From: Glandiceps talaboti
Taxonomy: Eukaryota > Hemichordata > Enteropneusta > Spengelidae
Assembly (NCBI RefSeq): GCF_964340395.1
Contig: NC_135556.1
Location: forward strand, 11,471,410-11,535,409
Reading direction: 5' to 3'
DNA length: 64,000 nt
How positions within the stretch are numbered: position 1 is the first letter of the stretch; every line of letters begins with the position of its first letter. The position numbers were made by a program, and so were the translations under genes. Of this stretch, positions 27,615-51,999 are shown in pieces. The notes under the pieces were generated by a model. The model was not told the origin of the DNA, searched no databases, and saw only the letters and a program-made list of their open reading frames with translations.

Positions 27615-27930
27615 CCCAGATAGCACACCTGTGGTGGGCCAACGTTGGCCCAACGAAAGTAGATCAGTTGGGCCAACGTCAGGAACTGAGGTTGGCCCAA
27701 CGTCGTTTTGTCCGTCGGCCCAACGTTGGCTCACTGGTGGCAAGAAATAGGTTGGTACAACGTTGGCCCAACTTTGGACACTGGCAAGGTTGGCCCAACG
27801 TTGGCCCAACAGTGGCAAGAAATAGGTAGGCACAACGTTGGCCCAACTTTGGCCCAACATTGCTAATTGGTGGTAAGGTTGGCCCAACGTTGGGCCACTG
27901 TTGGCCCAATGGTGCTTCACTGCATAATGG
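27615..27930. repeat. Left terminus and subterminal GTTGGCCCAACG repeats
   Basis: After the terminal CCCAGATAGCACAC come about ten copies of TTGGCCCAACGTTGGCCCAA-type words in both orientations (the core CCAACGTTGG is palindromic), interspersed with GGTGGCAAGAAATAGG. Subterminal arrays of this kind are the usual transposase-binding sites of CACTA elements; that role is inferred here. Confidence 0.85.
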
Positions 27931-28273
27931 CAAGCTGCCCACAGATCTATCAGAGATTCCATACAGGGCTGAATGTGATTCAAATACACTAAACAAGACA
28001 CAAAATATTGGATTTTATCAAATATTTATTACTAGTGTACAAGTAATGATATTACACAGTTCCCGCTTTTTTTTTCTTTTCTTTTTTTGAATATTTGGAA
28101 ATATCTAAAACTTATCTTAAATGTAATTGTGTGTGGAATGTATGACATCTTGCTAACAGAGTTCAAAGTAATAAAGGCTGTAGACATGGCAGAATTTATA
28201 ATAAAATGGTTGCCCTATGGACAATGTCTCCTCACACCAACTTTGAATGCTAAAAATACCACCAATGGTGTTG

Positions 28274-29240
28274 TAGCACAACTGTACAATGTACTGTTTT
28301 GAAAATATTTATTCGCATGGTGAGCATGCTAGGTATACATGTTCATTTGGTGAACCACACTTTCTTGACCCCAAAGACTGTATTATGTATGTAGCACAGA
28401 ATGAACCTGTTTAATCATAGAGAGTATTTTTAAAACAGTGTTTCCAAGCAACCTTAAACAGAGGGTAATCTTCATGCAATTGACATTGACATGTGAAGTA
28501 GCCCATAAAAGATTTAATGATTTTATTGCATCTATAAAACTATAACTTTTCATTTTGCATGAGTTTCACACCCAGAATCACATTTGTTGATGCAAAATGC
28601 ACATCTGTGATGCAATCATTTTGATTTTGTCCAAATGTTTTTGAAGAAAATCTGCAAGAATAACACTTTCAGAAACATCTCCCCAAGTTTCAGTCTCACT
28701 GACCAAGTTCTTTTTTAGATATAAGTTTTTGACCAAAAATGAACATTTTCCCACCTAATTTGCATATCACTCATGAAATCATAGTATGCTTAGTATTTCT
28801 TTGTCTATACACCCACAGATGCATCCCTGTTAAATTTCAGCCCAATCTGCTGAGTAGTTTTGGAATTATAGCGTTTTGACCAAAAAGACACATTTTTAGC
28901 CCTAATTTGCATATTACTGAGGGAATCATCATAATCTTAATTTACTCACCCCTAAGAATGTCCCCACCAAATTTCATGCCAATCTGCGTTGTAGTTTTGG
29001 AGTTTAAGTTTTTAGACCAAAAATCACATTTTTTGACCCAAAACCCATATCTGTGATACTATCATTTTCATTTGAACAATTTCCCAACTAGATACCAGAA
29101 GTAACATGACCACCAAATATCAAAGCCATCGGTCCAGCAGTTTTTTGACTTTAAGTTGTTTACAGACACACACAGACATACAGACAGACAGACACTTTGC
29201 CATCCCTATAGCACTACTGAACCTCAGTTCAGTTGTGCTA
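28274..29240. mobile_element. Nested TAGCACAACTG-ended element, copy 2
   Basis: The left end TAGCACAACTGTAC (28274) and right end CAGTTGTGCTA (29230-29240) match the element at 13191-14245, including internal TTTGCATATCACT units and a (CAGA)n tract near 29165-29195. It lies inside the giant transposon and ends 4 bp before the stop codon of the DUF4806-like gene, so it forms most of that gene's 3' UTR. Confidence 0.75.
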
Positions 29241-29244
29241 AAAA

Positions 29245-30731
29245 TCACTCTTGTTCATCATCACTTGAGTCAAGGTTCAGGTTAAGAGCCTTGAACTTCC
29301 TTGCTTGCTCTCTATCTCTTTCTGCAAATAAAGAAGTAAAATTTTAGGCAGTCATGTTTTGTTGATTTTAAATCATAGGTGTTTTCTCAGACTCCAGCAT
29401 GTGAGTCAAAATTAAGTCATTTACACATGTAAACTGCCAGATACTGAAAAAAGATAAAATTATTACCAATATTTTTAACTGTTACAGCATATCTTCATGG
29501 CTGACAAGGTAAAAATTAAATGTTTCTATGTCAAACACTTCACGAGACCTTCAATTATAGTTTCAATAGTAAAACATGAATTTCCTGAAAGCAGGGACAA
29601 CATTTTGGAGGCTGGTTTCAACACACTTCCTCTTTCACAGTTACAACTTACAAAGTGACAAGTCAACTGATTGGAAAAATATATATGCACCATAAAGAAA
29701 TGAGTATTTTGAAGTCAGGCTGACATCTGTGATCTTGATTTAGTTCACTGAGGTCATGAATATTTTTTGATATGACACTATAATTGTACCTTTTTGCTTT
29801 TCTGCCCTCTTTTTTCGACCCCCATCCCGGTCGCTGGCATACTTCAGCCAGTTCTTGATGGCTGCCTCACAGTCAGCCTCCTTTACATTAGACTGTTTGG
29901 CTGCATCTGGAATGGCAAATGTTGCATGAGATTTCGATTCATTACTGATTTTTTTTTTTTTTTTATTTCTTTGATCCCTGGCTAGTGCCACTTTTTTGAG
30001 ACATATCATAATTTGGATGGTATAATTTTTATGAATATCACTCTAAAAGCTTTTGTCAAATTATTTGGCACCATGAGAGAATATAGAAGTCCATCACTTG
30101 TGCCTCTTACAATCCTGGGGTTAATTAGGATTATTTATAATGTACTGCATTACTCTGGTATACTCATTTCATTACCTTGGTTAATAAACTAATAAAGTAA
30201 AACTGAATATCAATGTGAGCAGCACTGTGAAAAATAAATAATAATACAGAATTCGCCTTGCAGAGACATTATCCCTCTGTTAGGATACATGCAAAATCTT
30301 AATTGAGAAATTACCTTTGATAATTGTTGCAATACTCAGTTGTGAAAGGGCATGTTTTTTTAGTTTCCCTTTTCCCAGCCAGTTGTAGATCGTGGATAAT
30401 GATTGAGAGAACATGGCCACCATTATCCTCTCCACCACATCCTTGGAAGAAACACCTCCCAAGGTACTGAGATGGCGTACCTGGAATATATAATTGAAAG
30501 AGTGTACAGGAAACATATAAGTAGCAGAAGACTTTAACCATGTTATCATGTTATCATAACACTGCAGGGTTGCAGAAGACTTTAACCATGTTATCATAAC
30601 ATTGCAGGGTTAAGTTTTATGTTGGAAATACCCCAGTATATAATTTTTTTCATTTATTTGTTGATTTATATATTTATTTTTATAGCAGTACGGTGATAAA
30701 GAGGTCCATTCATTTATTCAAAAAATGCAAG

Positions 30732-30827
<96 letters not shown>

Positions 30828-33800
30828 TATATACTTAATTTAGTCCCAGACAAGAGGGGGAGGGGGGGGGGGGTTTAGGGCTGGGGTAAAAGATAAGCCG
30901 ACATAAACTATTTTGAATGTGAATGGTTCAACCGACTTTAGGACGTCCTCGGTGTTTGACTTCAGCATAGAAGCACTGAACACGCACACACAACCCATTC
31001 TGTATCATTCAATTTCTACGTCCCTAAAGTAACCCCTTCCTACCATACCCTACGGTGTTGTCCACTCCAAAGGGCACTTTCATGAACATCGATATTAAGT
31101 ATGTGTTCTTTTCGACTGTTCTCCCTGGTCGTCTTGATCTATTCTGTATAATTTGTTCATTATTTTCTTCACTTGAGTTTCTAAGTTTATTAAAATGGCC
31201 CTGGTTTACAAAGTTCAACCTTCTTGAGCAACAAATGTAGGAATGGTAGAAAGAGAGAGAATATGGCTTGTTTGATGGTTTGAGTGGAGTGAGGGCACTT
31301 TGGCTTTGGATCAAAAGCCTTACCACCTTTCGTGTATGAACCCGAACTAACTCCAAGCCGTGATTTGTTTTGGCTTAACAGATTAATCCTTATGTCGGCC
31401 CTGGGCCACTTTGGTTTTGAGTGTGAACGAGGTATAAGTAAAAAACAAAAACCCAGAGTACGACTACGTTCACACTCAAATCCAAAAGTGGCCCAGGGCC
31501 GACATAAGGATTAGCCTGATAAGCCAAAAAATGTTACGACTCGACTTACATTCATGAAAGGTTTTTGCGTTTGACCCGACCTAACATTCCAAAGTCATAG
31601 CACCCTCATTCCAACGTAATGGCGGCCGTCGGACAACCACAAGCAAGGTTGTTCTCTCTCTTTCTTTTATTCTTACGCTTTTTACACTCAAGAAGGTCGA
31701 ACTCTGTTAAACAGGTCATTTCGCTAGATTCAGAAACTTCAGTGAAGAAAATGACGGACAGATTACATTAAACAGGTCAAGACGAGCGCGATATCAACGA
31801 CAAAGGAGGAGAACAGTTGAAACAAACACATAACCTTGTGGATGTTCATGAACGTGCCTTCAACCATAACAGTGAATCACACCCTTTCGAGTTGACAATG
31901 CAGCAGGGTCTGGTGGGAAGAGGTTGCTTTAGCAACTTGGAATGACTTTTAAGTTGGGTTTAGGTCAGGTTAACCATGCACACTCAACTTATGTTATGTC
32001 GACTTAACTTTAAGTCGGTTTGAGACCGGGCCTAAACCCACCCTTTGTCTGGGACTAAATTAAGTCGGCCCTGGGCTGACATAGTGCGTTCACATTAGAA
32101 ATGTTTAAGTTGACTTAAAGTTAAGTAGGCCCGACACCGGTTTAACTGCCTAAGTGTGAACGTAGTATACACCTACCACCAAAGCAAGATATCTATAGTT
32201 AACTTGATAAACACTGCAAAGCACAGCAGGTATAAAAGGGGAAATATTTACATTACTTGGTATGACAGATAAGCACACATACCACACACACTTTTGCCAG
32301 TGCAGATAAAATTCTATGATATCCCACGCCCAAGAACCATGGCTTCCACCAATTATGGGAATTCCAATAATGGTTACATGATAATAATTTAGATGCACAT
32401 AGTATGTGGCAACAACACAGAAAGCAGTCTTCTTAAAGTTAAGCACAATGATCCTAAGTACAATACCTGGAACCCTTAACCAAGATACATACCTAGTACT
32501 AGTATATCACTTAAAAAACCTTCTGAAAGGAATTCAGGAGTCCTTTAATTATAGTGATAGCCAGTCTGGATCACTAGGGATTTGAAGCCTTTTGATCAAA
32601 ACATGTTTAATAGTCACGTAAAAATTAAAAAGAAAAGTTAACATTAAAAATCTTAAGCATTTCTAAACAGGTTTTCATTGGAATAAATTTCTGCCCAATC
32701 TGATTAAAATCCGATGTGGTGAAAGCGGCTAGATGTACTTATTTACCTCTATTCATCGTGTTGTGTCGTTTGTTTTGTTCGGAGTGATCGCCGCCTTCCC
32801 ACATCTGAACCGGTGTAATCTACAATCCCGTTTAAATCTCGCGCTTTTGAATAGCCAATTAGGACGAGTGTTACGTTGGCAGCTTCAAACACTGGAGAAA
32901 TTGATGGATGTTTTGCAAACAGCAGGACACCACTTCCCATTAAAGGCCATTCCAAAGATTAGATCGGATGAAGTAACCATTTTCACTGGGTCGCAACATT
33001 GCAATTCAAATTGTAAAACATTTAACTGTCTCTGCAAAACATAGTTTCAACTAGAAATTGTATTTACCAGTTCTCATGCGTTTTAGCCTTCAAGTTGTTT
33101 ATGTCGAGTCTATATATTCGCACGCTTCCGTAATTTATACAATTTGATTTTGACTGTGACATCGCACCGCGACAGTGATGAACACGTTGACCACGCCTTT
33201 GACATAAATGTTTCAACTATCATCTACAAACATCTACAAATCCGTTTGGAATTACTAAACTATTGCTGAATAATTATTTCAGGCGACCGAACTTTTGATT
33301 TTCACGTTAATAGAAGGATTGAATCAACATCAGTCGAACGAGCAACTTGTTGCTAGTGTCGAAATAAACATTCGCAATACCACGCTATCTACGACAATTT
33401 AGTCCAAGTTTAGAGGTCACTTCACGTCATGTCAAACATGTGACATCTCATCGGTAATTTCCGGATTTACATTCGTATTAGTTTCACGTTATACCCCAAC
33501 ATGGCCTAACTTAGAACCTTCGTGTAGGTGGATTTTGGCAACTTCCTCCCCACATAGACTATTCAAATCAATTATCATGAAGGTACGTCCTTTAAAAGTT
33601 GCGACTACGATTGAACGATCGGCTCTGATCATGTGCACGTACCTACTGTGCCTTCGTTAACTTTCGTTGACAGACAAGATCACATGACGTTATAATTACC
33701 TACGTATATGTAGTGGAGTGCCGTATTCAATTGTGTACTATGAATCGCATCGTGTCTAAACAGCTACCCGTCTAGTCTAGAATTTGGCATTAGGTAATCC

Positions 33801-36800
33801 TAAAACTTAAAGCTATATAGGACGTTTTAAAAACCAAGAGTTGTCGTACAAGTAAATCCTAGTCGCACGAAATTGGTTGACACGTGCGTTCGTCACGTAC
33901 CATCATTTATAGTTGTGATGACCGAACAAACAGAAAAACAGTCTCTTGAATTCAGGAACTTCTGTTTAGGTGTGGGTGAATAGTAAAATCATGTTTTCGT
34001 AGCATTCATGTGGTTGTTTTTGTCATTCATTAATTGTACACCACTCCCTTGTCAGCTGGGTTACTTGGCCATACGGTTATTTTAGAACAACATGCATCTC
34101 ACTCCGTGTATTATGTCGGCAAAGTTTCTGACTGTCATTTTCAAGAGTAGTAAAATAGCATTGCCTCTTTTGATTCCATCTTACATATTCTTAGTATGAA
34201 TTAAATATCCCTGTAGGCTGTAGTGATTTTGACGCACGCGAAAAACGACAATCTTACCCCCCCCCCCCTTCAAGGAATTACGTTTGTATAATAAAATAAA
34301 ATGTATGAAAACCATGTATAATAAAATAAGTAGTTGACTCGCTCATACACACATGGTGCCATTTCCTTCAAGTCGAAAGTCTACCTCAGGATCAAATACA
34401 CATGATGCTACAAAGAGTAACTACGGCCCGGCTGGGTGCCTACTAAAGGCTTCACTGTGTATATGACAAGAATCCCCCTGCCTGTTAGACTAAACATGAT
34501 AACTTTAATTTGACGATGCGTCGGTGGTGGCAACTGTATCTCTAAATGATTTTGAAAGAAATGTGCTGATTGGTTGAAAAATCCTTACAATATTGTCCAC
34601 GTTCAATGGGATTGTAGATTACACCGGTTCAGATGTGGGAAGGCGGCGATCACTCCGAACAAAACAAACGACACAACACGATGAATAGAGGTAAATAAGT
34701 TCATCTAGCCGCTTTCACCACATCGGATTTTAATCAGATTGATTTCTGCCCTGCTAATACATTCAATAACCTATGCTCTTGCATTAAGAGCATTAAGACA
34801 GTAACGCAATATCTAATATTTTTATCTCCATTCTAACTTAAGCTGTAAATCTGTTTCTGAAAATTATCCCTGAAAACTAAATGATCCAAAATGTTCAAAT
34901 GCATCAACTTACTAGTCGCTTTGATTTTTCTTTATCTTGGAGGGTCTCCTCCACAGCAGTCACATCGGCTTCTGATTCCATCGGAAGACGGAAGTCCTCA
35001 CTGATGTCAATGTCTACATTGACCTGTTGCTGCTGCCTCACCTTAAGGGACTTTAGCAGCAGAGTATTCTGCTTGACCTGCTGCCTAATCTCACTGAGCA
35101 CCAGCAGTACTGTTTTCAAAGTTCTACAAGGAAAATATTTTAAGTTACACCACCTTAATCAAAATATATCAGGTTATATCATCTACGGCCAAAAAAGATC
35201 ACTTAGCCTTGTTAAAGGTTATTAAGGATATACATGTAGACTACAACTAATAAGAACTGCAGACTGTTATGGTTCAGTTGAAAATAAAAACATGTTATAT
35301 ATACCCAATAAACTATATATTATCTTGAAGCTTTGGATCTCCTCTATTCACTTCTGTATTGAATATGTTTAATTAAAAAGTGAAAGTGGTCAGTGTGAAT
35401 GGGAGAAAATCAAAGGTGGTCGAATATCTTATCATCTTTTATTTACACAATACAGAGAGCACCTGAAAATGAAACATATACCACTCAATTCATGCTGCAC
35501 AGGCCCAAAAAACCGTGTCTCTGATTTTTGTTTACACTCTCCGTTTTTACTGTACATCATTTTATTCCAGACACCCAATGTAAACAAACTTGTTTTTATC
35601 ATAGCTTATCAACCAGGTCAGTAAAACAAAATCCCAGACACAGTTTTGGGGGCAGTGGCAGGCCAGATCGAAATTATTTTCACGAGTGATGTGGTTTCTT
35701 CACTCGTGAAAATAATTTCGATCTGGCCTGCCTGCCACTTGGAGGCTGTGGGGTTCTGTCATATTCTTTACATTGAAAACTCCAAATAAAAGTCTTGAGG
35801 CAGCAGATTTATGAAGGGATGGGCCAGGACAATACACAAAGGATGAATTTAGTCTGGTCTTTCATTATCTTTTCTTAATGTTAAACCTTTTTGCAGCTGC
35901 AGACCCTGTTTGTGCCTCAAGAGCTCCCTGTAATGTGGCAGATAGTTTTGCAATAGCAAATTTGTAAAGAGAAATGGTAAGGGGTTGGTTACTGGACCAG
36001 TTGAGAATAAAATTTCTCAATATGCTGATGATACTAATTTTCCTATTCAACCTACACTTGGTTCACTTAATGCTTTGATTGATATTCTAGACAAGTTTTC
36101 TTCGATCTCAGGGCTAAAGCCTAATTATAAAAAGTGTAAAGTATTGCGTGTTGGTTCATTAAAGTATAGTAATTTCAAAATAAATACAACACATCCCCTA
36201 GAATGGACTGATGGGGCAGTAGATGTCTTGGGTGTACATATCCCTGTTGATTTATCATATTTAATCGATGTAAATTTTTACTCTCGGCTTGAAAAGGCGA
36301 GGAAAATATTGCAGCCATGGCAGGGCCGGGGTCTAACCCTATACGAGAAAGTGTCTCTCATAAAATCTTTGGTTGTTTCACAGTTTACATATTTGTTTGT
36401 CTCTTCCATCTCCAACGCTTAATTTTTTTAAAGATTACAACTCCTTGGTTTTTAAATTTCTTTGGGAAGGTAAGCGAGAATGGATAAGGAGAAATAGTAT
36501 ATATAAAGAGTACGAAAATGGCGGTCTTAATCTGACTAACCTTGAAGTTTTTAATAAATCTTTGAAAGCTTCATGGTTCCTTAGAATTATAAAAAATGAT
36601 AGTTTATTTTGTAGTAAATGGTATAACTCAATTCTTGATGAGATGGGAGACCCCTTTTTAAAGTATGCTAATCTTGACAGCCAAGACTATAATACCCTTA
36701 ACCGTGTCCACTCAGTTTTTTTAAAGGAAATTATTTTATCATGGCTGCAATATAATCATACATCTGTTAATAACTTTAGAGACATTTGTTGTCAATAAAT

Positions 36801-38377
36801 AAAAATTTAAAAAAAAGAAAGAAGAGAAATGATAAATTATTGATGGAGTTTTATTATACTGAGCTAAAAGATACCCACCACCTAAATGCATAAACATCAT
36901 ATTGTTGCAGTATTTATACATAGTAAGTATTAAATGTAACTAATAATTGTAATCTTACTTACCTTTCTGTTGAATCTGTTGGATATTGATCTTGTCCAAA
37001 ACCATCATTCAGCCTCTCATCCATATCAAGAGTCCTGTCAATTGAAAGTTTTTTTATTGTTTAGTTGTAGGATTTTTTTTCATAAGACATTTCTGTTCAT
37101 ATACAAGTAATAGTCATTCAACTGTATGCAAAATTGACAGACTGTGATACACTCTTAGAAAAAATAACCTTGGTCTAAAACCTCTATCAAAGAAATATAA
37201 TATCCCTATGGGTGTGCGAAATACTAACAATATTATGGACAAATATACAGACATAAGTGGCCAAGCATAAAGATGGTGCACACACATGATACTTGTTTGC
37301 TACAATGATGCAGTTTCATTCAAGACTTGCTGACAATATATGTTATTAGCTTTGTTTTCCTTTCCATACCTTGGAGGGAGGGGAGACAGTGACCTGGAAG
37401 ACCCAGGAGTTGGTGGTGGAGACCTTCCATTGCAGATGTTGCTGGTACTGTTGGTCACCTCTTTGTTCGAGTTTGCTCTTTCTTTTCCAAAACTTGGAGG
37501 GAGGGGAGACATTGACCGGGAACACCCAGGACTTGGTGAAGGAGTCCTTCCCTTGCTGTTACTGTTGGCACTGCTGCCTTTCCCCCAGGAAGGTACCAGT
37601 GGCCTTGTTTTTTCGCTGCAAATTAAAAAAATCAGTATGAGGTAATGATGCTCTTTGCACATATTAACCCTTACAGTGCTGGATTATGGTGCTGATCCTG
37701 GACTACAACTTTTGTTCAAATATTTTTGTTGGAGCAAATCCTTGATAGGATTTGCTCCTACAAAAAAATATTTGAACAAAAGTTGTAGACTGGACCGGAT
37801 AAAAGTTGCCAAAGTCAATATTTCCATTGAAATTTGAAATAAATGAAAACATGTAAGGCATAAAAATGGTGAGAAATTCAAAATTAGGAATGGATATATA
37901 CGGGATATGAACTGTAAGGGTTAAAGTCCTCCATTCAAAATTAGGAATGGATATATACGGGATATGAACTGTAAGGGTTAAAGTCCTCCATTCAAAATTA
38001 GGAATGGATATATACGGGATATGAACTGTAAGGGTTAAAGTCCTCCATTCAAAATTAGGAATGGATATATACGGGATATGAACTGTAAGGGTATAAGTCC
38101 TCCATTCAAAATTAGGAATGGATATATACGGGATATGAACTGTAAGGGTTAAAGTCCTCCAGATCTGTTTGAAATGCAAAGGAATGTGAAATTTCTTCAA
38201 CCACACATATCCTTGAATAAATGCAAATTTTCACCCTTGATTTTTATGTGTTATATCTGCAGCATTTCATGATGTCTGATTTTCTAGCCAGTTCTTAATT
38301 TTGCAATACCAACGATGATAATTCAGAGGTATTTTTGGTTCTTTTAATTTCTTCCTATTTGAACTGCATTCTCTTTG

Positions 38378-38431
<54 letters not shown>

Positions 38432-41194
38432 TAACAATAATAACAATAACTTTGTGCATAAAATATTACATATATACATATAAGATACCCTACCAGGCGT
38501 GAAAGCTGTCTGTATGGCTTTCTTAATTCAGTGCCATGAATACATGGTATTTTTTTAATTATTTCATAAATACAGCCATATTCTCCACAGTGTGACGTAA
38601 TACAGGACAAAAAGAAACACCCGTATACCCCCTGTTCTACAGGAACTACTTTGAGAGTGCATATATTTCGCCGAGATATTTCGTAATACATGTACTCAAA
38701 TCACTGCCGGTACAGTGTAGTTTATGTTTTTCTTGCAAACAGTGGCATGTCGGCAATATTTTATTTAGATTGGGTAGAACATTATCAATGTTATAAAATT
38801 TTATTGAGTCTAGAAGTGCATAGGACATTCGTTTTGGCTGCCGGATTCAGTTGACGGTACGGAACCCAGCTGACGCAGTGACAGCACTGCACTGTAAATT
38901 TCTGATATGCGCTGTCGTTTAGATGTCAATATCTAATAATTTAGACCGAGAGTAATGATTCTACGAACTATCAATATAAATATCTCAAGAAATTTTCTTG
39001 TGACGTACTTGCGATGATTTGTTTGTAATCAAAACATCGGAAGTCGGAGACCAAACGAAAAGTGAGCAGCTGTATCAGCGCGAGACGGTCAGGTCATCAC
39101 ACTAATTTGTATATGACCTCATAATGTTTTTGTTTTTTCGCTGACACAAATATAGTTCGATAAAACATCCCAATTATAATTTGTGATCTAGTTTCAAAAA
39201 AATATTGTTATATTTATCGCTTTGTTTATGAGATAAATATATAATCCCATGGTACCCACGTTAGTGTTACGTCATAATTCTACTCGTAGGATGGGCAGAC
39301 TTTTATAAATTCTCGCCTACGGCTCGAGTTTATATCAGTCCGCCCATCCTAATCGTAGAATTATGACGTAACACTAACTTGGATATCATGGGATTATATA
39401 TAAATAGGTGTGCAAATACTGGGTTGATTTTACCTGTTTCCTGACACCTTGAACAGCTTTTGTTTTTTTCTTTCCTCCAAGTCTTTCCTACCGACTTCAT
39501 CATCACCCCCGTCACTGGAGTCGTGATCACTGGGAAAATGCTTTGGTCGTTTACGCCTGTTGAAACAAAAGTTTTGTATGTGAAAAGTAAATTATCATTC
39601 ACTAGGCTTGCGAAATCTGGATAAGATGAGGTCTTGTGGTGCAGGATGCCTATGTATTTGATTTAAAAAAAAGGCCAACCCAACTTTTCATTAGTAGAAA
39701 TGTGTAGAGGAAATTTTTCAAGGATTTTTTTTTTCATGCTTGCATCGATCTCTTTTATTTACTGGATCTATGATTCAACAAAGAAATCAAATTGACATGG
39801 CCCTAGTCAACACTTCATTTCAATTATTGTATATGATGCTCAACCTGTGCATCATTTTGTTTTCCCCTATGGGCATCACCTAATAATACTGTAACAATGT
39901 ACACATGTTGGTTGACTGACACTGAGAGCAATACGGTACGTTTGTTCCCTCAGGACTAGCCAGTCACACCAAAACAGTCTCGTTTCCTCCGAGGGCATAG
40001 CCCAAGGGGAAACAAGACTGTTTTGGTGTGACTGGCTAGTCCTGAGGGGAACAAACATACAACGTTGCATGAATAATGTCAGTCGACATGTGTTTTATAA
40101 CACACCAAACAAGAATCAGAAGTTTCGCTGCCAATACTGGTTGCGGCTGCAGACAAGAAAGCCATTGTTTACAAACAATTGTTGGGCTATGCAAATGTCG
40201 TCTGCATGCACACGCATGAGATGACGTTGTTACCAGGCAACAATCGATGGTCATGTTTCCCTTGGGGAACATTACCACGTACTTTTTGACTGGTACGTCA
40301 TTGATCGTGGAACAGCGCGATATGATTCTGATCACGTGGTGTGTCATTGACCAATAGCAATGCATATTAGATATGATCATGAGGACTGGATAGGATGACA
40401 TCTTGTGTTATAAGATAAGTTGTAGACTGCCTAAGATTCCTATGTTTGTGATAAGGCCCAGCTAAAAATTCATGATTGACATTTTTTGTACAATACATAA
40501 AGTTGGCTTTACAGCTCTATACCTCCGTCTTTGGTCCTCTTCAGAGGTGGCAAGGTCACTGAGGCCATCTTCTGCCTTTTTACAGGCCTTGCGTGCCCGC
40601 TCAAAGCTCTCTATATTGACAGGAAAGATACATATCATGTCTCAAAGAAGTCACAAAAAGGGTACTTCAGGAATATATTTCATAAATGTATATTATCAGT
40701 CTAAGAGTAAAATCTCCACACCAATTAAGATATGTCTCTTTCCTAATTTTTAGGGTTTTAATGTTTTCTCACATTATTGATTTAAAGATAACTTCTAACA
40801 GATAAAATGACAGAATAATCTTGGGATGGTCCAGTCATTGTCAGAGGGAGCACAGAAGACACCATCAACTTGAGAATAAACAGTTAGTTACTGCTGTCCT
40901 TCAGATGATCAAATACATAGCTAGTAATACATCCTTTACCTCTAACTCTAAATGTTCCAAATTTCAATAAAATACTGCAACTACTTATAACACACACCAA
41001 CCTGTTTCTTTTAAGAGCTGCACGTCATAGCTTTCCCAGCCTGGTTGGGAGGGTTCCAAGTTCATGATCATATTGGTAAACTTCAGGCCTTTGTGTGGTG
41101 GCCACCAACACTGTTTGAGGTCCTTGCCATAAAGCCAGGATCTTGGCACAACATCAACTGTGTTGTCAGTTGGAAAAAGGACGACTGCGTACAT
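29245..41194 (-). CDS. DUF4806-like accessory protein of the transposon, 9 exons, 430 codons
   Basis: Coding exons (minus strand, 5' to 3'): 41194-41002, 40610-40523, 39556-39434, 37615-37370, 37034-36963, 35123-34913, 30480-30315, 29906-29790, 29321-29245. Every intron is GT-AG and all eight junctions keep one frame to TGA at 29245-29247. The N-terminus (about 3-63) has a compact domain with VVPRSW and CWWPP motifs. It is followed by a charged and Ser/Pro-rich linker (about 94-240; RKRPK, then two repeats ending SPLPP). A helical stretch (about 243-280) comes next, then a DUF4806-like region (about 290-400; [42 protein letters not shown]), ending in [11 protein letters not shown] and an acidic tail. 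Proteins of this kind occur with animal CACTA transposases; the role is unknown, perhaps DNA binding or regulation. A 3' splice site precedes the ATG (exon from 41200), so further N-terminal sequence from an upstream exon is possible. Confidence 0.85.
30524..30611. repeat. Short direct duplication in intron
   Basis: GCAGAAGACTTTAACCATGT occurs twice about 48 bp apart, just upstream of the main DUF4806 exon. Confidence 0.8.
30737..30831. repeat. (AT)n microsatellite with AAAT interruptions
   Basis: AT dinucleotides broken by several TAAATAT steps, in the intron between the sixth and seventh exons of the DUF4806-like gene. Confidence 0.95.
30833..32170. mobile_element. Nested fold-back elements with ACTTAATTTAGTCCC ends
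   Basis: ACTTAATTTAGTCCCAGACA at 30833 is matched by its complement ending at 32065, giving a 1.23-kb inverted-repeat element. Inside is a tight hairpin with arms 31384-31429 and 31467-31513 (ATCCTTATGTCGGCCCTGGG and complement). Related GTCGACTTAAAGTTAAGT words continue to about 32170. No coding region is recognised. It lies wholly in an intron. Confidence 0.7.
32696..34741. mobile_element. MULE-like non-autonomous element, 134-bp TIRs, 9-bp TSD
   Basis: Arms 32696-32829 and 34608-34741 are inverted repeats of about 134 bp with roughly one mismatch, starting CAATCTGATTAAAATCCGAT. The 9-bp word ATTTCTGCC flanks both sides (32687-32695 and 34742-34750). Long TIRs with a 9-bp duplication are the hallmark of Mutator-like elements. 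No transposase is recognised in the 1.8-kb interior; an open frame at 32733-33044 begins inside the TIR and has no known motif. It lies in the intron between exons 6 and 7 of the DUF4806-like gene. Confidence 0.88.
35655..35738. repeat. Near-perfect 35-bp hairpin
   Basis: Arms 35655-35689 and 35701-35738 (CAGATCGAAATTATTTTCAC and complement) separated by an 11-nt loop; right arm has a 3-4-bp insertion. Intronic fold-back. Confidence 0.9.
35977..36821 (+). pseudogene. 5'-truncated LINE with frameshifted reverse transcriptase C-terminal part
   Basis: The plus strand encodes the end of a non-LTR retrotransposon reverse transcriptase. QYADDTNF near 36020 is the catalytic YADD box, followed by [12 protein letters not shown]. 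The frame shifts near 36405-36420 and resumes as [13 protein letters not shown] and [20 protein letters not shown], typical of L1/Tx1-like elements, to a stop at 36798. An A-rich tail follows. The 10-bp word AAGAGAAATG flanks both sides (35967-35976 and 36822-36831), a target-site duplication. The 5' truncation and frameshift make it inactive. It sits in the intron between exons 5 and 6 of the DUF4806-like gene, in the opposite orientation. Confidence 0.85.
37703..37788. repeat. Near-perfect 40-bp hairpin
   Basis: Arms 37703-37742 and 37748-37788 (CTACAACTTTTGTTCAAATA and complement), 5-nt loop, about 90 bp upstream of exon 4 of the DUF4806-like gene. Confidence 0.9.
37876..38160. repeat. 57-bp tandem repeat, five units
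   Basis: AAAATTAGGAATGGATATAT recurs at exact 57-bp steps (37880, 37937, 37994, 38051, 38108). Units are almost identical, so the expansion is recent. Because 57 is a multiple of three, long open frames appear on the minus strand; they are not supported as coding. Confidence 0.95.
38381..38429. repeat. (TAA)n microsatellite
   Basis: About 16 AAT/TAA units within an intron. Confidence 0.95.
39236..39401. mobile_element. Fold-back MITE
   Basis: Arms about 39240-39298 and 39340-39399 (GTTAGTGTTACGTCATAATT and complement), loop about 40 nt. Intronic, about 30 bp from exon 3 of the DUF4806-like gene. Confidence 0.85.
39901..40094. mobile_element. Fold-back MITE
   Basis: Arms about 39902-39992 and 40006-40093. 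The inner 55 bp are almost perfect (CCTCAGGACTAGCCAGTCAC and complement). Intronic, between exons 2 and 3 of the DUF4806-like gene. Confidence 0.88.
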
Positions 41195-41256: not shown

Positions 41257-42372
41257 GCAGTCTCAGTCATTATTAAGAATCATCAATGTGGTGACTAGAG
41301 TAAGAGACACTCATTTACACATCATTGCAAATAGCGTATATTAAAAAATTGTGAAAAAACACCAGCGTACTCAGTGATGTAGATAATAGCCGGTTACCGG
41401 TTACAACACCCGGCTATAACAGCTGTGTGACCGGCTATAAATGTCAACCTGACAATCTAGTATTACCAGTATTATGTAACTTTGTCCTATGTTCAGAAAA
41501 TCCCAGTGTTTCACAGGTAGTTTTACAGCTTTGCATGTAACCATCTTAGTGATCTACTTCTACAAAATGAGGGAAAATTATGATGCATACGTTTATTTCC
41601 ATGTTTAAGGCCAAGGCATCTGAATCTGAATCAACAGCAAACATGGTCTTCGTCCAGGAACATTTTGGGTTGTTATAGGTAGAGTAAAAAGAGTCCAGAC
41701 ACAACCAATGCATAGGTGCACTTCTTGTACATCAGTAGAGTCCTGCAATTTATTTGTATATTCATTCAAGCAGCTTCATGCATTGGAATCGACACAAATC
41801 CATCCTCATATGGCAGTCTCAGTCATTATTAAGAATCATCAATGTGGTGACTAGAGTAAGAGACACTCATTTACACATCATTGCAAATAGCGTATATTAA
41901 AAAATTGTGAAAAAACACCAGCGTACTCAGTGATGTAGATAATAGCCGGTTACCGGTTACAACACCCGGCTATAACAGCTGTGTGACCGGCTATAAATGT
42001 CAACCTGACAATCTAGTATTACCAGTATTATGTAACTTTGTCCTATGTTCAGAAAATCCCAGTGTTTCACAGGTAGTTTTACAGCTTTGCATGTAACCAT
42101 CTTAGTGATCTACTTCTACAAAATGAGGGAAAATTATGATGCATACGTTTATTTCCATGTTTAAGGCCAAGGCATCTGAATCTGAATCAACAGCAAACAT
42201 GGTCTTCGTCCAGGAACATTTTGGGTTGTTATAGGTAGAGTAAAAAGAGTCCAGACACAACCAATGCATAGGTGCACTTCTTGTACATCAGTAGAGTCCT
42301 GCAATTTATTTGTATATTCATTCAAGCAGCTTCATGCATTGGAATCGACACAAATCCATCCTCATATGGCAG
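41257..42372. repeat. 556-bp tandem duplication, copies apparently identical
   Basis: 41257-41812 and 41813-42368 read the same at an exact 556-bp offset, with GGCAG at each junction. The second copy includes the last codons and stop of the transposase gene; the first repeats that tail out of context. Identity means a very recent event or an assembly artefact. Confidence 0.92.
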
Positions 42373-44346
42373 AAGCACAACTTTGGCAGAAATATCATCC
42401 GGATCAACCAGAAATACGTTTTGTCTTGCATTAGCCACAACAGCAATATCCAGGTTACATGAATCTAGTGGGTACTCAAAAAAGGACTCCTGTCTTCGGA
42501 ACTTCTGACAAACAAGTTTCCTTGAGTTGTTGTAAACCAAAATGTTCTTGACAACATATGTTTTGTGGCCAACAAGGATAGCATTATCTGGTGACTTTGA
42601 GGACAACAAATAATTTGGCATTTGAAGCTGTTCAAACTGTTCACAAATGTCAACTTCATCTGGTAAAGGGCCACGCTGGTGTTTCTTTTTACAGAAAGTG
42701 CCTGTTTCTTTTTGGGGTTTAGCTGCATCCATCCTTTCGTCTAGGCGACGGATAACCTGCTGCAGTGGTGATTTGGGTTTACGCACAAGCTTTTTTATGG
42801 TCTGCAGAAAATTTTCAAAAGGGAATCCACAGAAATTGTGCATAGGTCCATACAGCTTGCACTGTGATGCTAAGTGGGTAATACCATGGACATTATAAAT
42901 AACTGCCTGCCTCCCATAAAGGTCACTAACATTTGTGACCCAGACATTGAGAAGCTCTTTAACATAGTCACAGTAATCATAACAAAACTTTGCATTAGAT
43001 AAAACAGTGACACCTACAAACAACATCATAAAGTTGTTATACAGAGCTTGTGAAAGCCTGCCTCGAAGCACAACTGGTCCAACATACAACAAAAAAGTCC
43101 TGAATTCTGTAGCCTTCCACCTTTCTACCTCACAGAGTGGCCTTCCTTTGCGTGCAAATTCACGAGGTAGAAATGATTTTAGATTTAAAATACATTCTGA
43201 GATCAGTTTAATCACATTGTTGGTCACACGAACATTCAGGGGTCCAGACATCCACATAGAAATTAGTTTCTTCACTACCCCCAAGCAGACAAGGTGCATG
43301 TAGTCATGGGGGAATTGTGAGACTAGCCCAATGTTAAGTTGTCTCAATATTGTTTCTCCGGTTTGGTTGGAGTCATCATACTGCATTTCATGAAATGCAA
43401 TATCAGTTCTTTCTGGTGCATCATATTCAGGGAAGGTCATTCTATGCATGAAATGAACTCCATGTTGTACACAAAAATCACACCCATCATAACCACAGTG
43501 GCCCTTGGTTTTTTTAACAAATGCACGTGCTGGAGTATCACAGATAAAGTTTACAATTTTGACGGTATAATTCTTGTCATTGAACACTATCCCATGGACT
43601 TCAATGTCTTTCATTTCAGAAACAAACTTCTCTAAAAACTCATTTGAGTCTTTAGGCTTTGATTTACCAACCCACAGGGCGACGATAAATGGAACCTGGT
43701 CAGGGTCTTTAATCAAAGCTAGGATAGGCCAGAAGCTTTCGGTGGTACTTTTAAACAATGGAAGGCCATCAATATTAATCTGTAATGTGAGTTCATCATG
43801 TGCAGATAGGCGTTCGTGGTTACTTATTTTTCTCTTCAGACCTTCACTTATGCCAAAATAAAAAAACTGACCCCCAGATAGCTCTTCAATGTCGTATGTA
43901 CGAGGTGTTTTAAGCAGAGTACGTGCATCTTTTGGCAAAGTTGGAAAATGTGGTTTGAGGATTTCCAGAAGAGTGTTGGTATGGCAGAGGGGGGTGTTGC
44001 TATTAAGCACCCATTGCCTCAGGCTATCTTTAATGTCAGCTGGTGCCTCATTATTTTCCATGTCACTGTTTTCATCTGTGCTGTCCTCATCTGTGCTAGC
44101 CTGAGCCAGGTCACTGTCATAGTCCAGCTGTTCATTGTCATCTTGGCCATGAGGACCTACATGCATAGCATCATCAGATGAAGAATCACTGCCATTATCC
44201 ATCAGATCTTCTTGAGGATGTGCAACATTATGCTCAGGAACTTGTTCCTGCACCTCCTCAGAATTGTCTAAAGTTGCTGTAACTATGCTTGCTGCATCTG
44301 CTACTGCCCGCCGTCGTATAGTCCTGTCACTCACAATTTTCTCCAT
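42322..44346 (-). CDS. CACTA/EnSpm-like transposase
   Basis: A 674-aa DDE-type transposase that should cut and paste the surrounding element in the nucleus. The ATG at 44346 is the first in frame. A 3' splice site (GATATTTTCAG) lies 20 bp upstream, so a leader exon exists further up. The N-terminal 110 residues are acidic and Ser-rich (about 45-100). The core follows: INIDGLPLF with D193, FWPILALI, NFICDTPARAF with D270, a zinc-like CGYDGCDFC cluster at 284-292, FPHDYMHLVCLGVVKK with D348, VHGITHLASQ and PFENFLQTIKKL with E511. D193, D270 or D348, and E511 are candidate catalytic residues. No stop or frameshift interrupts 2 kb. AATAAA for the minus strand lies at 42305-42310, 12 bp past the stop. 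The next gene on this strand is the DUF4806-like partner. Confidence 0.9.
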   Translation of the reverse strand: MEKIVSDRTIRRRAVADAASIVTATLDNSEEVQEQVPEHNVAHPQEDLMDNGSDSSSDDAMHVGPHGQDDNEQLDYDSDLAQASTDEDSTDENSDMENNEAPADIKDSLRQWVLNSNTPLCHTNTLLEILKPHFPTLPKDARTLLKTPRTYDIEELSGGQFFYFGISEGLKRKISNHERLSAHDELTLQINIDGLPLFKSTTESFWPILALIKDPDQVPFIVALWVGKSKPKDSNEFLEKFVSEMKDIEVHGIVFNDKNYTVKIVNFICDTPARAFVKKTKGHCGYDGCDFCVQHGVHFMHRMTFPEYDAPERTDIAFHEMQYDDSNQTGETILRQLNIGLVSQFPHDYMHLVCLGVVKKLISMWMSGPLNVRVTNNVIKLISECILNLKSFLPREFARKGRPLCEVERWKATEFRTFLLYVGPVVLRGRLSQALYNNFMMLFVGVTVLSNAKFCYDYCDYVKELLNVWVTNVSDLYGRQAVIYNVHGITHLASQCKLYGPMHNFCGFPFENFLQTIKKLVRKPKSPLQQVIRRLDERMDAAKPQKETGTFCKKKHQRGPLPDEVDICEQFEQLQMPNYLLSSKSPDNAILVGHKTYVVKNILVYNNSRKLVCQKFRRQESFFEYPLDSCNLDIAVVANARQNVFLVDPDDISAKVVLLPYEDGFVSIPMHEAA

Positions 44347-44364
44347 TTCCAAGGTTACTGTAGA

Positions 44365-44945: not shown

Positions 44946-45406
44946 ATTTTCTTTCTAAGAATTATGGGAAATTTTTTATCACATTTTCAATCCCAAAAAG
45001 TTTGATACCAAATGTTGTATCCATTGTAAACATTTATTTTTACACACTACCTATCATTTCCCCTATCCATACCTTGTTATTGCCAATTTAGATAGATATA
45101 TAGTTGCACATTATGGATTAGGACAACAGAAATGAACACAGTATATAGCTATAACACTGTTTTCATGACATTGAAAATTGAATTTCAGTGCAGACCTGTT
45201 ACTATTCTTTTGTCAACAATAAAAATGACCATTACATACATATATAAGGTATTTTTACAAGCCAAATACTGAGCAATTTGACCTGTGCCCATTTTTGATA
45301 TATCACGTGCTGATGTAATGTCCAAAATTTGGGGTTTTGACCCAGCCATTGTGAAGAGATAAGAATGAATAACAAAGATAAACCAATGTGACCATGGCTT
45401 TTGTCT

Positions 45407-45455
45407 TACCTTGGAGGAATTATACTGACAGTATAATTCCTTCAAGGTCTTACAC
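45407..45455. repeat. Small hairpin
   Basis: ACCTTGGAGGAATTATACTG faces CAGTATAATTCCTTCAAGGT with almost no loop. Confidence 0.8.
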
Positions 45456-45524
45456 TATCCATTACTGATAATACTTCAACAGCAAACACAGGCAAAGAGT
45501 TGGGTTATCAGCCACTGCACAAAC

Positions 45525-46496: not shown

Positions 46497-46503
46497 CACA
46501 AAC

Positions 46504-49240
46504 TTTACTATTAGCTCCAGTAGCGGACTGCTAATCATGCACATCTCAAACACTGAGCATGAAAGAAGGGTTATACTTCCATGAACTTAGTCAACATTTT
46601 GACAGTTAATAAAGGGCATAATTAGAGTTATCTAGTGGAATACACAATGTATATACATCTATCAATGTTCTCATGACTAAGTTACTAACTGTTCCCATGA
46701 CTATACAATAGACATGTATGGGGTACAGGAATTCTGTAGATTTAAAATGTAATGTTGCCTAGGAGAAAACAAACTTTTCCTCTCTGACTGAACTTGGTGG
46801 AGTTGTGAGGAACACATACTAGTATAGAATGGTTATGCAGAAAGTTTGAATCATGCAGCATTTAGTACAATAAACCCAGGATGAATTTATACCAGTACCT
46901 CATAAATATGGTACAACATAATAGCGCGAGATCTATATATTTTGGAACCAGTGTCTGAAAATTAATGTATTGTTTCAATGTATGTGCAATTATTGCAGGA
47001 AATTTGTCTTGCTTGTAGAACACATGCATGTAACTGAATCAGATATATATCACACACAAAAACAAACTACAATGTCAAATTGCAGATCCAGAAAATATAG
47101 CCTGGTACTAGCGGTAGCCTGAATCCATCACACACAAAAACAAACTGCAATGTCAAATTGCAGATCCAGAAAATATAGCCCAGTAGCCTGAATCCATATT
47201 ACATTAATCAACAGACAGAGGAAGTGACTACATACACTCTCAAACCACTATAAACCACTAGTCTGAGATACAGCGTGTCTTTTTTGGATCTACAAATCCC
47301 AAACTCAGTTTATAATGGGTAAAACAGGGTACAAAATTGTCAGCACAAAGACTATTAAATTCAACTATCATTGGGAAATTTCAGGAATATCCACAGAGTA
47401 CATTTTTTATCTAAACACAAATTATCATTATTTTTATGCCGATGCACCTATTTGTAGGTAAAAATAATGATGTAAGATAAAAAAATGTAACTGTTTTTGT
47501 TAATTTGAGATGGGATTGACCAAAATGATATTTACCTTTCTTTTTAGGAACAATAATATTTTTGTGTAAAAACTCTGATTGTCATATGCACTATGTATGT
47601 GCCGACTCTGCAACTCAGACCTTGTTTGGTTCTTGCTACATGTGTACATCTGTATCACTGGGCAGTGTGCATACTTTGTACAAACACAAAACACATATAA
47701 TATTGTGTCACTGTTTTGTATACTCATTGTTACATGCTTATTGGTTGAAAGAGTGGAAAGGCCAGAGGTCAATTTTAGCATAATTCTGCTGAAGTTGTAC
47801 GTACCACATACAACAACTGGTAAAAGTACGGTGCCACACATTGATACATAGTTTTAGCCAAGTTTTCACTTATTTTCACATTGGCATGTAGCAAGTTACC
47901 TAGCTATAGCAGCCTTTGCAAAGGAGATCTCTTTTCTGCCATTTTTGGTGTAATTTTAACCGAAGATGATCTCATGTCTACGTCTACTGATGGTTCCACA
48001 ATAGTGGTTTCTCTGTTTGACCATGGCTGATATTACTTCCATGATCTGATCAACTTTTGGTCAAAATCAAGTTCACTGGAACAACAAAGGTAAGAGTGAC
48101 AATTTTTATCATTATTCTTGACATGTGGCAGATTGTGCTAGGGCTATATTTCTAGTTCAAGTACTGTTTTTTGAAACTTTTCAAACTCTTTAATATATGC
48201 AGCAAATCCATGCATTTCTTCAATAGTGACTAAATACTTGGTGGTAGAACTGATTCCAAACTTTCCATATGTGACCCCAGTATGTCTGTGATGTTACAAA
48301 TGTTTATTAAGATCTTGGCATTGCCATGTGTTGTTTCAGGATATTTTGAATAGACCATGGTAATTTATCCCAAAAACAGTGGAGAGGCCTACTAGCTATT
48401 GTCTATGTTTATCTTTAGATAGATGTTGTCACACATTGCCTGAATAGACAATGAGATACTTATTACTTCAGTGCATCTTTTGTCCTTGCAACTTGACTGT
48501 ACAAGAGAAACAAAAGAAAAGGTGTAAAATACTAAATATGCATTTTATAGTTGAGAAGACAGACAGAACAGCTGTTACTGGTATCTTTCTTGATGCTGTA
48601 ATGAACCCGTTTTTCCATGAGTCCCAGCTGACTTGAGATCCTCATGTAAATATTAGATAAACAATCAGGTTGTTTGCTGAAAACAAATCTTTTAGTATGA
48701 CCATATCGAAATCACACTTGTAAATTTTATCCATTATCAGATACTCATCTGGTTGATCAATACATTTGATGCAATTGTTGTAATGTTCAATAACAAACTT
48801 TTTACACCATTCATTTTTTGTAATTTTTGCAGTCACTGAGTTACAAACACAGACTTAGTCAAATTGTTTTGCATTGATTTTCCAAATAGGAAGCAATGAT
48901 AAAAATGTTTTATAAATGAAAAATCCAATATAAATGCCCGGTCCTCATTCATATGGCCACTTTTAATTAATTGACCATTTATTTGAATATTCATTATGAA
49001 GACTTGGGGTTTCAAATGATATTCTTGAGTTAGAATTGAAATCAATCCAGGATTACTTACAGTGCTACAAAACTTTATTGCAATAAATTAATGAATTGAA
49101 GCAGTTCATCAATTGTCACTTTTACCTTTGCTCCTAACATGGCAGTATTACTTCAATGCTCATACATATGAAATCTTACGTATCACTACAAACACCATTT
49201 ATTTGTAGAGATGCTGTAACTTATATAGCTTATATATCTG
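46504..49240. other. Transposon 5' region; no gene recognised
   Basis: Holds a direct duplication of about 80 bp at 47050-47195 (CACACACAAAAACAAACTAC) and an imperfect AT-rich hairpin at 47398-47492. Two minus-strand open frames (48642-48836, 49045-48833) show no motif. A leader exon for the transposase could lie here but was not identified. Confidence 0.45.
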
Positions 49241-49422
49241 CTAAGACAGTGCTCTATACCGCAGTGGCAGAGCGCAATAGTTTTGGTAGTACTGGAACTC
49301 TTTCTTGGTTGTAACTCGGAGTTTCACGCATAGTGCGTGATGCGTGATGATAGTGTTGTCTGATGATCGCACTATGCGTGAAACTCCGAGTTACAACCAA
49401 GAAAGAGTTCCAGTACTACCAA

Positions 49423-49428
<6 letters not shown>
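49241..49428. mobile_element. Fold-back (hairpin) MITE, copy 2
   Basis: The same element as 4695-4880 in the opposite orientation: CTAAGACAGTGCTCTATACC at 49241, then the arm GTTTTGGTAGTACTGGAACT, a 40-nt loop and the complementary arm to 49427. Its inner end runs straight into AT repeats. Two short echoes of TAGTTTTGGTAGTA follow at 49484 and 49514. Confidence 0.9.
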
Positions 49429-49488
<60 letters not shown>

Positions 49489-49524
49489 TTGGTAGTACAA
49501 AGATCTATATATATAGTTTTGGTA

Positions 49525-49583
<59 letters not shown>
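49426..49583. repeat. (AT)n microsatellites interleaved with MITE-end fragments
   Basis: AT runs at 49426-49485 and 49524-49583 are separated by two copies of the MITE terminal word TAGTTTTGGTAGTA. Confidence 0.95.
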
Positions 49584-49585
<2 letters not shown>

Positions 49586-49599
49586 GAAATGAACCAGTA

Positions 49600-51437
49600 C
49601 ATCTATGAAACTGAGTAATCCCATTTTTCACATGAATATTTCAATACTTCAATAATCTGAAGAGAGTATCATCCCTCCCCTTCTTACCAATCATTTAGTG
49701 TTAATGTAGTTAGCATATTGAGATATCAGCACTGGCTCTAAATACATGTCCTATCAATTTATTTAATAACATACTCTTCAAGAGTCAAACATCATGTGGA
49801 GGAAGCTCAAAGCTATCCGTAACGTTATAACACAACAACACAAGTCAGATGCATCTTTAAAATATTTGTATTCTTATGGATATTCTTTGGCCTTCAACAG
49901 AAGTAAAATAACCTTTAAAGATTTTTAAGTTTTAACCAATCATTTCCTTTACTGCAGTTGAAGAAGCAAAATGAGAAAGAGAGAAAATCCACAGAAGAGT
50001 TTTAAGCACAGTTGCACTGATATGATGTCGGAGAAGAAACCATGGTGTGTGTAATTAAGAACCCATGAGTTCAGTCATTTATCCAAGACTTGAAATGGAA
50101 AATCTAATCAAGAGCAATATGAAGAGCACAACTTTTGGAAAGAGATCACAGGACTATTAGTCTAGAAGAACATTGGAGGAACATTACTCCCTCCCTGTGG
50201 ATATTCAGTCATCATAATGGATATAATTCTTAATTAGTAAATTAATTTTTAAAAACTGGAATGTACTAATATTCAATTTTCAGCATTAGTAAATTTTACA
50301 TAAGAATATAAAAGAAAATGTCAAATGTTGGCATATTTTTACAGAGTTTTGCTGTTTTACTAATAAATTTTAAAACCCAGAGAAAACCCAGCAAATCTCT
50401 TGATTTATCACACTAAAGTGACCGGTGGTTTATGGAACCTTCCCATATATATCATTGCATTTGGAGGATAGCCTTTTTGTGGAAAAAAAAAACCCAACCT
50501 CTCCCCTACCCCTCCAAATAAAATAAAATAAATACAGGATCCACCATACTAATAAATAATGATTGTCCCCTTATAGTTTTAACAACAACCACACTCAATG
50601 ATTACTTGACCCCATACTGCCCACACACATTGCACAAGTGGGTAAACGTCACACACAGGTATGCAACATATACAACATAAATTGTTCCATTACACATATT
50701 TATACCCCCAATCATACATATACTTCAAGTACAAAAACTTCACAAGTGCAAAAAACATACATTTTTCTGAACACCAGTCGTTCAGGTGGAAACGTCCATG
50801 CCTTCACATCGAAAATGCCATGTTATGTTATTGTTCCGAGTATAGAATTGGAGCTCACAATCTGGTGCAAATGATGGCAACAATGTTACATTTGTATGAC
50901 GTAAAGGATCGCGCGGAAACAAAATTTAAACACGAGGAGGGTGAATGGAACAGACACGGTTATTTCGTGTCCATTTCCATGGTGACCCCCATACGCGTTC
51001 CGAGACAGCGGGATCACATACAATCGGCTCTGTAAGACGAACGCATCAAGTTATACCTTACCCAATCACATAGAAATTTAGTTTATTGTATTGGTATTAC
51101 TATTTGGTATGTTTTTGTTTCGTGATAATTGAAAATATTTATGAAAAAGGCATTAATAATTGTGTATTGTACGCTACTGATCACAGTGCGATCATTCTCG
51201 CGCCCATGCTAACAAATGTGCACGTTGAACTATACATACCATGTTTCGCAATTTCTGTCGTCTTATTTAACAATCTAGACAATAAAACATATTCATGGTC
51301 ATTTTGACAGTAATTATGTAAGATAAATATACTCACCAAGATGAAAACAAATCCTAAAACGCTTAGTAAACGAGATGACGAGTTGGCGGCAGTCAACCAG
51401 AAGACACTTCTTATCTTGAGGGCGTGCTATACATTCG
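49600..51437. other. Transposon 5' region; no gene recognised
   Basis: No exon is convincing. An open frame at 50661-51035 has no known motif. Confidence 0.45.
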
Positions 51438-51999
51438 CATCGTAACAATCACGTGATCACCCAGTCGACAGCGCAGGTTTATAGCTCCATGATATGGTTG
51501 AGCTGACGGTGGCATTCGGCAAGTTAAAACGATTGTTTTAGACGTTATTCTTGTGAAATAAAGCCTCATTGATGCTTCCCAAGTACGGCAAGTATTGAAA
51601 AATGACAACACAACGCATTTTATATGCTTTCAATTATCAACGTCATGCATGTGCCGACGTCGGGAAAACGTTGACACACCGACCCAATATTCACACATTC
51701 ATATCGTGACAATCACGTGAGCACCAAGTCGCAGGGTATGTTGCATGGTTGAGCTAACGTTGGCCCGACGGTGGCATTCGGCAAGTTAACACGGTTGTTT
51801 TAGTCGTTATTCTTGTGAAATAAAGCCTCACTGGTGCTTCCCAACTACGGCAAGTATTGAAAAATGACAACACAACACATTTTATATGCTTTCAATTATC
51901 AACGTCATGCATGTGCCGACCTTCTGCCGACGTCGGGAAAACGTTGACACACCGACCCAATTTTGCCGACGTCGGGCCGTCAGTGTGGTGTTATCTGGG
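51438..51999. repeat. Right terminus of the giant transposon, with a 262-bp tandem duplication
   Basis: Two copies of about 262 bp (for example GTGAAATAAAGCCTCA at 51553 and 51815) each hold TGCCGACGTCGGGAAAACG. The end carries GCCGACGTCGG palindromes and the terminal complement of CCCAGATAACACC. The left end uses CCAACGTTGG instead. Confidence 0.85.

Follow-up and report, generated by a model that had tools for sequence, protein, structure and literature searches.

A probable full-length 24.4-kb CACTA-type transposon carrying two genes in satellite DNA of an acorn worm

A two-gene element in a satellite array

The stretch of DNA analysed here, referred to as the window, comprises 64,000 nucleotides of the genome of the acorn worm Glandiceps talaboti (NC_135556.1; C9:11471410-11535409), in which an array of a 96-bp satellite is interrupted by a 24,385-bp interval carrying two genes on its minus strand, a single-exon transposase gene and a nine-exon gene with a DUF4806 domain, here called gene 2 (Table 1). 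Taken together with the copies found elsewhere in the genome, this interval is very probably a full-length DNA transposon of the CACTA (En/Spm) superfamily, of the animal TRC type, and a source-like copy with internally deleted relatives.

The satellite is interrupted after 27614 and continues from 52000 with AT duplicated, as had been described in an earlier note made from the letters of the window, and direct reading of both junctions (...GAGATCAT / CCCAGATAGCACACC ... GTGGTGTTATCTGGG / ATTGACC) agrees with this; the interval begins with CCCAGATA and ends with TATCTGGG. An unoccupied version of the same site is preserved in a block at 25876, which matches the left flank exactly over 385 bp and the right flank exactly over 419 bp (AT counted in both). 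The note had placed the empty site in a 153-bp block at 25838-25990, which located a real empty site in a block that was too short. The 15-mer CAGAGATCATTGACC occurs at 26 sites in the window and, apart from 25876, these match over at most 66 bp on the left and 20 bp on the right, and a 40-mer over the empty junction has a single occurrence in the window, at 25866. Joining the flanks in silico yields an 802-bp exact duplicate at a shift of 1729 that crosses the insertion point, in which no differences have accumulated since insertion. As this exact repeat spans the insertion point, the insertion is later than the 1,729-bp block duplication, and both the 1729-bp period and the order of events proposed in the note were reproduced. 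These observations support a CACTA-type insertion that postdates a local satellite duplication.

Table 1. Features of the element in the window, and internal parts lacking from its deletion derivatives (window positions)
Feature	Position	Strand	Remarks
CACTA-type (TRC) transposon, complete	27615..51999		24,385 bp; ends common to further genomic copies, 2-bp duplication, empty site
Target-site duplication AT, left	27613..27614		
Target-site duplication AT, right	52000..52001		
96-bp satellite array, left part	24863..27614		empty-site copy 25876-25885 within 802-bp exact duplicate
96-bp satellite array, right part	52000..55933		
5' terminal inverted repeat	27615..27649	+	8 bp exact, imperfect to 35 bp
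3' terminal inverted repeat	51965..51999	-	
5' subterminal repeats	27626..27919		4 exact CCAACGTTGG palindromes
3' subterminal duplicated block (~270 bp twice)	51431..51975		3 exact CCGACGTCGG palindromes
Transposase open reading frame, single exon	42322..44346	-	674 aa from ATG 44346; 693 aa from GTG 44403
Gene 2 exon 1, start codon	41002..41194	-	
Gene 2 exon 2	40523..40610	-	
Gene 2 exon 3	39434..39556	-	
Gene 2 exon 4, Pro/Ser-rich	37370..37615	-	
Gene 2 exon 5	36963..37034	-	from NCBI model only
Gene 2 exon 6	34913..35123	-	
Gene 2 exon 7, main part of DUF4806	30315..30480	-	
Gene 2 exon 8	29790..29906	-	ends at donor used by NCBI model
Gene 2 last exon, stop	29245..29321	-	from NCBI model
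LINE reverse transcriptase relic, passenger in gene 2 intron region	35946..36795	+	weak RVT_1, E 0.0023
Nested element in gene 2 intron, passenger	32696..34741		140-bp inverted repeats (98%), ~9-bp direct repeats flanking
Class A	lacks 32394-40626 and 41567-45313		C17, C23, C20a
Class B	lacks 35201-45962		C1b
Class C	lacks 40756-50160		C14, C12
Class D	lacks 35787-44753 and a short piece		C11
Class E	lacks 32763-47881		C1a
Class F	lacks 31720-38537 and 41190-45358		C20b, C22
Class G	lacks 35821-45308		further copy on C1

Copies elsewhere in the genome

Genome searches were conducted on one haploid assembly (590 Mb, 47 contigs), and copies are labelled by contig. The search for copies sharing both termini that the earlier note had proposed returned 17 further 5' ends and 12 further 3' ends with the same boundaries, rather than copies ending elsewhere. 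With the first 600 bp of the element, 18 genomic places including the window were found at 91-100% identity, and all 17 further matches start at query letters 11-16 (window 27610-27615); 27 other rows were short matches of 70-72% and were left out of this count. With the last 580 bp, 13 places including the window were found at 98-100% identity; 11 of the 12 further matches stop at letters 580-582 (window 51999-52001), and the twelfth reached letter 591 in the search, with direct comparison placing the end of its locus at 51999. Ten complete copies, 12.5-17.0 kb long (C1a, C1b, C11, C12, C14, C17, C20a, C20b, C22 and C23), were extracted and compared with the window element. The window element and all ten copies have CCCAGATA at each end, and nine of the ten have equal 2-bp flanks (TA in four, AT in two, and AC, GC and AA). 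The terminal inverted repeat is exact over 8 bp (CCCAGATA) and pairs imperfectly on to 35 bp, and the ends are fixed because other copies share them, not by the length of this repeat. Divergence between copies is 0.12-0.87% over 4.2 kb of shared ends, and the family is probably young. On C20, four copies at ~3.93-3.95, 4.55-4.56, 5.98 and 7.52-7.53 Mb were found by their 5' end only; two contain gene 2 exons 4-9, one exons 5-9 and one none.

Each of the ten complete copies corresponds to the window element minus internal parts, and the transposase is gone in all of them. Seven deletion classes were distinguished, partly read copies included. Among four further copies, three were partly read and have junctions that delete the transposase, and the fourth resembles such a class in its exons; a copy on C2 belongs to class A, the 3' part on C12 has the class C junction, and a second C14 copy resembles class F by exon content. 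Nine deletion junctions were examined, of which seven have an overlap of 1-6 bp and two a filler of 2-3 bp. Some copies also contain insertions of 1.1-3.8 kb. Although C14 and C12 have the same deletion, it is C14 whose shared ends differ least from the window copy (0.29%), which would point to recombination or conversion.

The transposase

In the 693-residue numbering, the transposase has the residues D212, D289, C308-x2-C311, H506-x3-H510 and E530. D289, C308, C311, H506 and H510 are invariant in an alignment of 30 sequences, and D212 and E530 are present in at least 90% of them. The set fits the C(2)C/H(3)H signature that characterizes the CACTA-Mirage-Chapaev (CMC) group, D212 and E530 being putative members of it. 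Protein relatives are numerous, with 2,099 matches at E <=0.001 among 8,000 candidates; identity ranges over 36-65% in the 120 matches listed, among which are entries from molluscs, tunicates, fish, sea cucumbers and brachiopods. Among the 30 aligned proteins, at E <=0.01, DUF4218 is found in 25 and Transposase_21 in one. The predicted structure has a mean predicted local distance difference test (pLDDT) score of 82, and all 24 PDB chains found in a fold search with E <=0.001 are RAG1 or Transib (HzTransib), from which a RAG1/Transib-like catalytic fold is predicted; searching PDB sequences with the alignment of the transposase gave no matches. Transposase relatives in the sets genome_contigs and viral_contigs amounted to 17 and 6 pattern matches, none of which was confirmed. 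Target-site duplications are 5 bp in Transib and 8 bp in Zisupton (KDZ) elements, and with the 2-bp duplication found here membership of Transib was rejected and that of Zisupton is likewise not indicated.

Searched against the genome, the transposase protein has one full match, the window itself; seven other rows are partial and 23-31% identical, the next row being 31% identical over half the length. At the DNA level, a search with 42124-44752 recovered the query locus, the duplication next to it and 40 rows that all fall in ~197 bp upstream of the gene; of 53 candidates 40 were scored, and no second transposase copy was found among these. The ~197 bp (44555-44751), directly upstream of the transposase, are part of another repeat that is listed at 40 places with 84-86% identity, often in pairs on opposite strands ~5.5-6.8 kb from each other; they probably form one end of a further inverted-repeat element, close to where the promoter is likely to lie. 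Downstream, an exact tandem duplication with a shift of 556 bp (41256-42372) includes the final 51 bp of the transposase frame, and class A derivatives align with one of its units only.

Gene 2 and the subterminal repeats

Gene 2 extends over 12 kb of the element. Its exons are bounded by GT/AG sites, are consistent in phase and join into a single uninterrupted coding sequence, in the product of which Pfam DUF4806 scores 33.6 bits against a cut-off of 25. The NCBI model LOC144438893 isoform X2, on the 27.5-Mb contig, represents this gene as well and differs from the exon model made here by an extra internal exon and by its last exon. The two intact genes claimed in the earlier note are supported, the transposase as an open reading frame and gene 2 in spliced form, invisible as a single open frame; the deletion derivatives, the single-copy transposase and the identity of gene 2 go beyond what the note had described. 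Searching the genome with gene 2 gave 94 listed exon matches (E <=0.1, 61-100% identity; 98 of 103 candidates scored), among which only the window copy has all nine pieces. In the assembly searched, no copy other than that in the window appears to retain either gene whole. A fish protein (P0168) can be aligned to three of the exons, namely exon 1, the DUF4806 exon and the one that follows it. Two further NCBI models, P0166 and P0167, on a contig as long as C20, carry DUF4806 exons; P0166 is fused to a methyltransferase (NNMT/PNMT) and is possibly a host-transposon chimeric gene.

The predicted structure of the gene 2 protein (pLDDT 40.7) was too poor for a fold search and was not used. DUF4806 is called a BEN subtype in the accessible text of one paper, and the Drosophila BEN protein Insensitive is described as binding CCAATTGG as a dimer; no BEN family was among the Pfam hits of gene 2 at E <=1, and no link of CACTA elements with a BEN domain was found in the literature searched. 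In that literature DUF4806 is named in four papers, once in each, and no description of such a second gene was found; one may be recorded in Repbase. A whole-genome profile search with PF16064 gave no match even for the window, probably because the domain is divided by introns, and 14 controls gave none either. DUF4806 peptides beside other CMC transposase matches were sought at 7 loci of 3.4-4.1 kb (best E 1.3), too little sequence to judge an association.

Subterminal repeats occur at both ends of the element, as in CACTA transposons, and contain the palindrome CCRACGTYGG. All seven exact sites in the window lie within 600 bp of the element ends, four as CCAACGTTGG at the left end and three as CCGACGTCGG at the right, with none in the remaining 62.8 kb; 500 mononucleotide shuffles of both ends gave a mean of 0.002 sites and a maximum of 1. 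Allowing one mismatch brings the number of sites to 15 in the 1.2 kb of the ends and to 3 in the other 62.8 kb.

Comparison with known elements

The class of the element is known; its size, its two-gene make-up and the picture of a source with derivatives set it apart as a variant of that class. In maize, the autonomous source element En/Spm is accompanied by internally deleted dSpm derivatives, and its TNPD transposase acts alongside TNPA, which binds the subterminal repeats. The source with deleted derivatives described here resembles this arrangement, and the two-protein set may be a parallel. En/Spm has CACTA ends, whereas those of the acorn-worm element read CCC..GGG. The size of En/Spm is given as 8.3 kb in PMC1636069, against 24.4 kb here. 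The earlier note had called the element CACTA-like, and its CACTA type was upheld but not its termini, which read CCCAG in the window element; the CACTA-reading ends of strict plant CACTA elements are absent.

Animal CACTA-related TRC elements have ends starting with CCC and 2-bp duplications (DeMarco et al. 2006, PMC1636069). Both are found here, the inverted repeats starting with CCC and the 2-bp duplication in the window and nine of ten copies. In the accessible text of that paper, SmTRC1 and animal TRC elements share with the window element CCC inverted repeats, a CACTA-related transposase, truncated copies with broken open reading frames and empty sites in repeats, and SmTRC1 also has 2-bp duplications, in 7 of 14 copies. 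They differ in size, at 4.5, 5.2 and 9.2 kb, the last being the largest animal CACTA-type size in the literature compared, so that 24.4 kb is unusually large for an animal CACTA; in the 54-bp inverted repeat of SmTRC1, against 8 bp exact and 35 bp imperfect here; and in DUF4806, as that text describes no such gene (PMC1636069). The soybean CACTA element Tgmt* (20.5 kb) is, in the accessible text of PMC2613891, likewise very large and putatively autonomous, with subterminal repeats, transposase and DNA-binding functions and known defective deletion derivatives. It is a plant element in which one gene has both functions, whereas here there are two separate genes. The predicted transposase is also like Transib and RAG1, its best PDB matches, and unlike them in its 8-12% identity and, for Transib, in the 2-bp duplication.

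Alternative explanations

Several points weigh against a full-length CACTA-type source copy. The window copy, which the earlier note had called complete and which does have both ends, is not an exact ancestor of the family, since it is missing 1.9 kb of a long interspersed nuclear element (LINE) present in two derivatives; C14, which adjoins a run of N, has the unequal flanks AT/AC; and the terminal repeat is weak by length alone, 8 bp being also the longest exact match among 2,000 random interior pairs. The window protein is unmatched by Pfam Transposase_21 and falls below the DUF4218 cut-off (E 3.1e-5, 24.2 versus 27), and its fold matches are distant (TM-scores 0.26-0.42 by query length). 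Copy counts from the one assembly are lower bounds, and with an evidence base of sequence and predicted structures the activity of the element is putative. The element could instead be a transposon of 12-17 kb, of which the shorter copies are the true form, recently swollen to 24.4 kb by nested insertions, as the lengths of all ten other complete copies and the LINE relic and nested inverted-repeat element in the window copy might suggest. However, the short copies miss different, overlapping internal parts, with short overlaps at the junctions; their aligned pieces jointly cover the window element except for ~41568-44752, the transposase region, whose first part repeats 41256-41567, and 44843-45073; and gene 2 exons fall in parts absent from one copy or another. 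This deletion map refutes growth by nested insertion for nearly all of the interior and makes it highly improbable overall. Satellite arrays are also difficult to assemble, and a misplaced contig might have joined two separate arrays at this locus, which was judged from the assembly alone. The 802-bp exact duplicate across the restored site speaks against this at the level of the assembly, element ends common to other copies fall exactly at the join, and the window is free of N, which together leave such a misassembly a very low probability.

That DUF4806 belongs to a captured host gene outside the transposition machinery is less likely than not. In its favour, an NCBI model on the 21.4-Mb contig fuses a methyltransferase to DUF4806 exons, and papers on zebrafish and Hydra mention DUF4806 genes with no CACTA or EnSpm in their accessible text. 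All 94 listed exon matches, however, lie in or beside copies of this transposon family, with no separate divergent host gene appearing, gene 2 occupies 12 kb of the element, and in the accessible text on soybean Tgmt* one gene encodes both the transposase and the subterminal-repeat binder (PMC2613891). As a transposon gene, gene 2 most likely encodes a TNPA-like accessory protein that would bind CCRACGTYGG near both ends. We put forward tentatively, as a possibility short of an even chance, that DUF4806 serves animal CACTA transposases as their TNPA-like partner, binding this CpG-centred motif, and that a single surviving source copy with two genes, located in satellite DNA, drives the acorn-worm family.

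Possible history of the family

The element inserted into one unit of the 96-bp satellite array when the 1,729-bp block was already present twice, and AT was duplicated at the target; its family points to a cut-and-paste mode. It carries the transposase gene and gene 2, of which the exon structure is read from the sequence and the function is putative. The other complete copies derive from such full-length elements by internal deletion, and interrupted gap repair after excision would leave junctions with such short overlaps or filler. Several of these derivatives may then have multiplied, which would mean that transposase was supplied in trans. Since either gene was found complete in the window copy only, the family's transposase is likely to come from this copy or from a close sibling that has been lost or is missing from this haplotype.

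If DUF4806 is indeed a TNPA-like partner, many genes labelled DUF4806 in fish, Hydra and other animals would belong to transposons. One genome combines precisely defined ends and an empty site with an intact transposase of the predicted RAG/Transib branch, a candidate for the second protein and for the sites that it would bind, and deletion derivatives in seven classes whose shared ends are less than 1% diverged. As all these parts sit in one genome, the one-source model, the origin of the derivatives and the role of DUF4806 are directly testable.

Passenger sequences and neighbouring features

The LINE relic is 1,925 bp longer in C14 and C12, the stretch missing from the window copy lying at 36796. 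As these two derivatives retain it, the ancestor element was probably ~26 kb long. Outside the element, the window also holds a G protein-coupled receptor gene at 2039-3109, a TRIM-like open reading frame (RING/B-box) of 381 residues at 60959-62104, and clusters of a 21-bp tandem repeat at 20678-22701, with TTATCTCGTGCTCACGACTTA and inverted forms.

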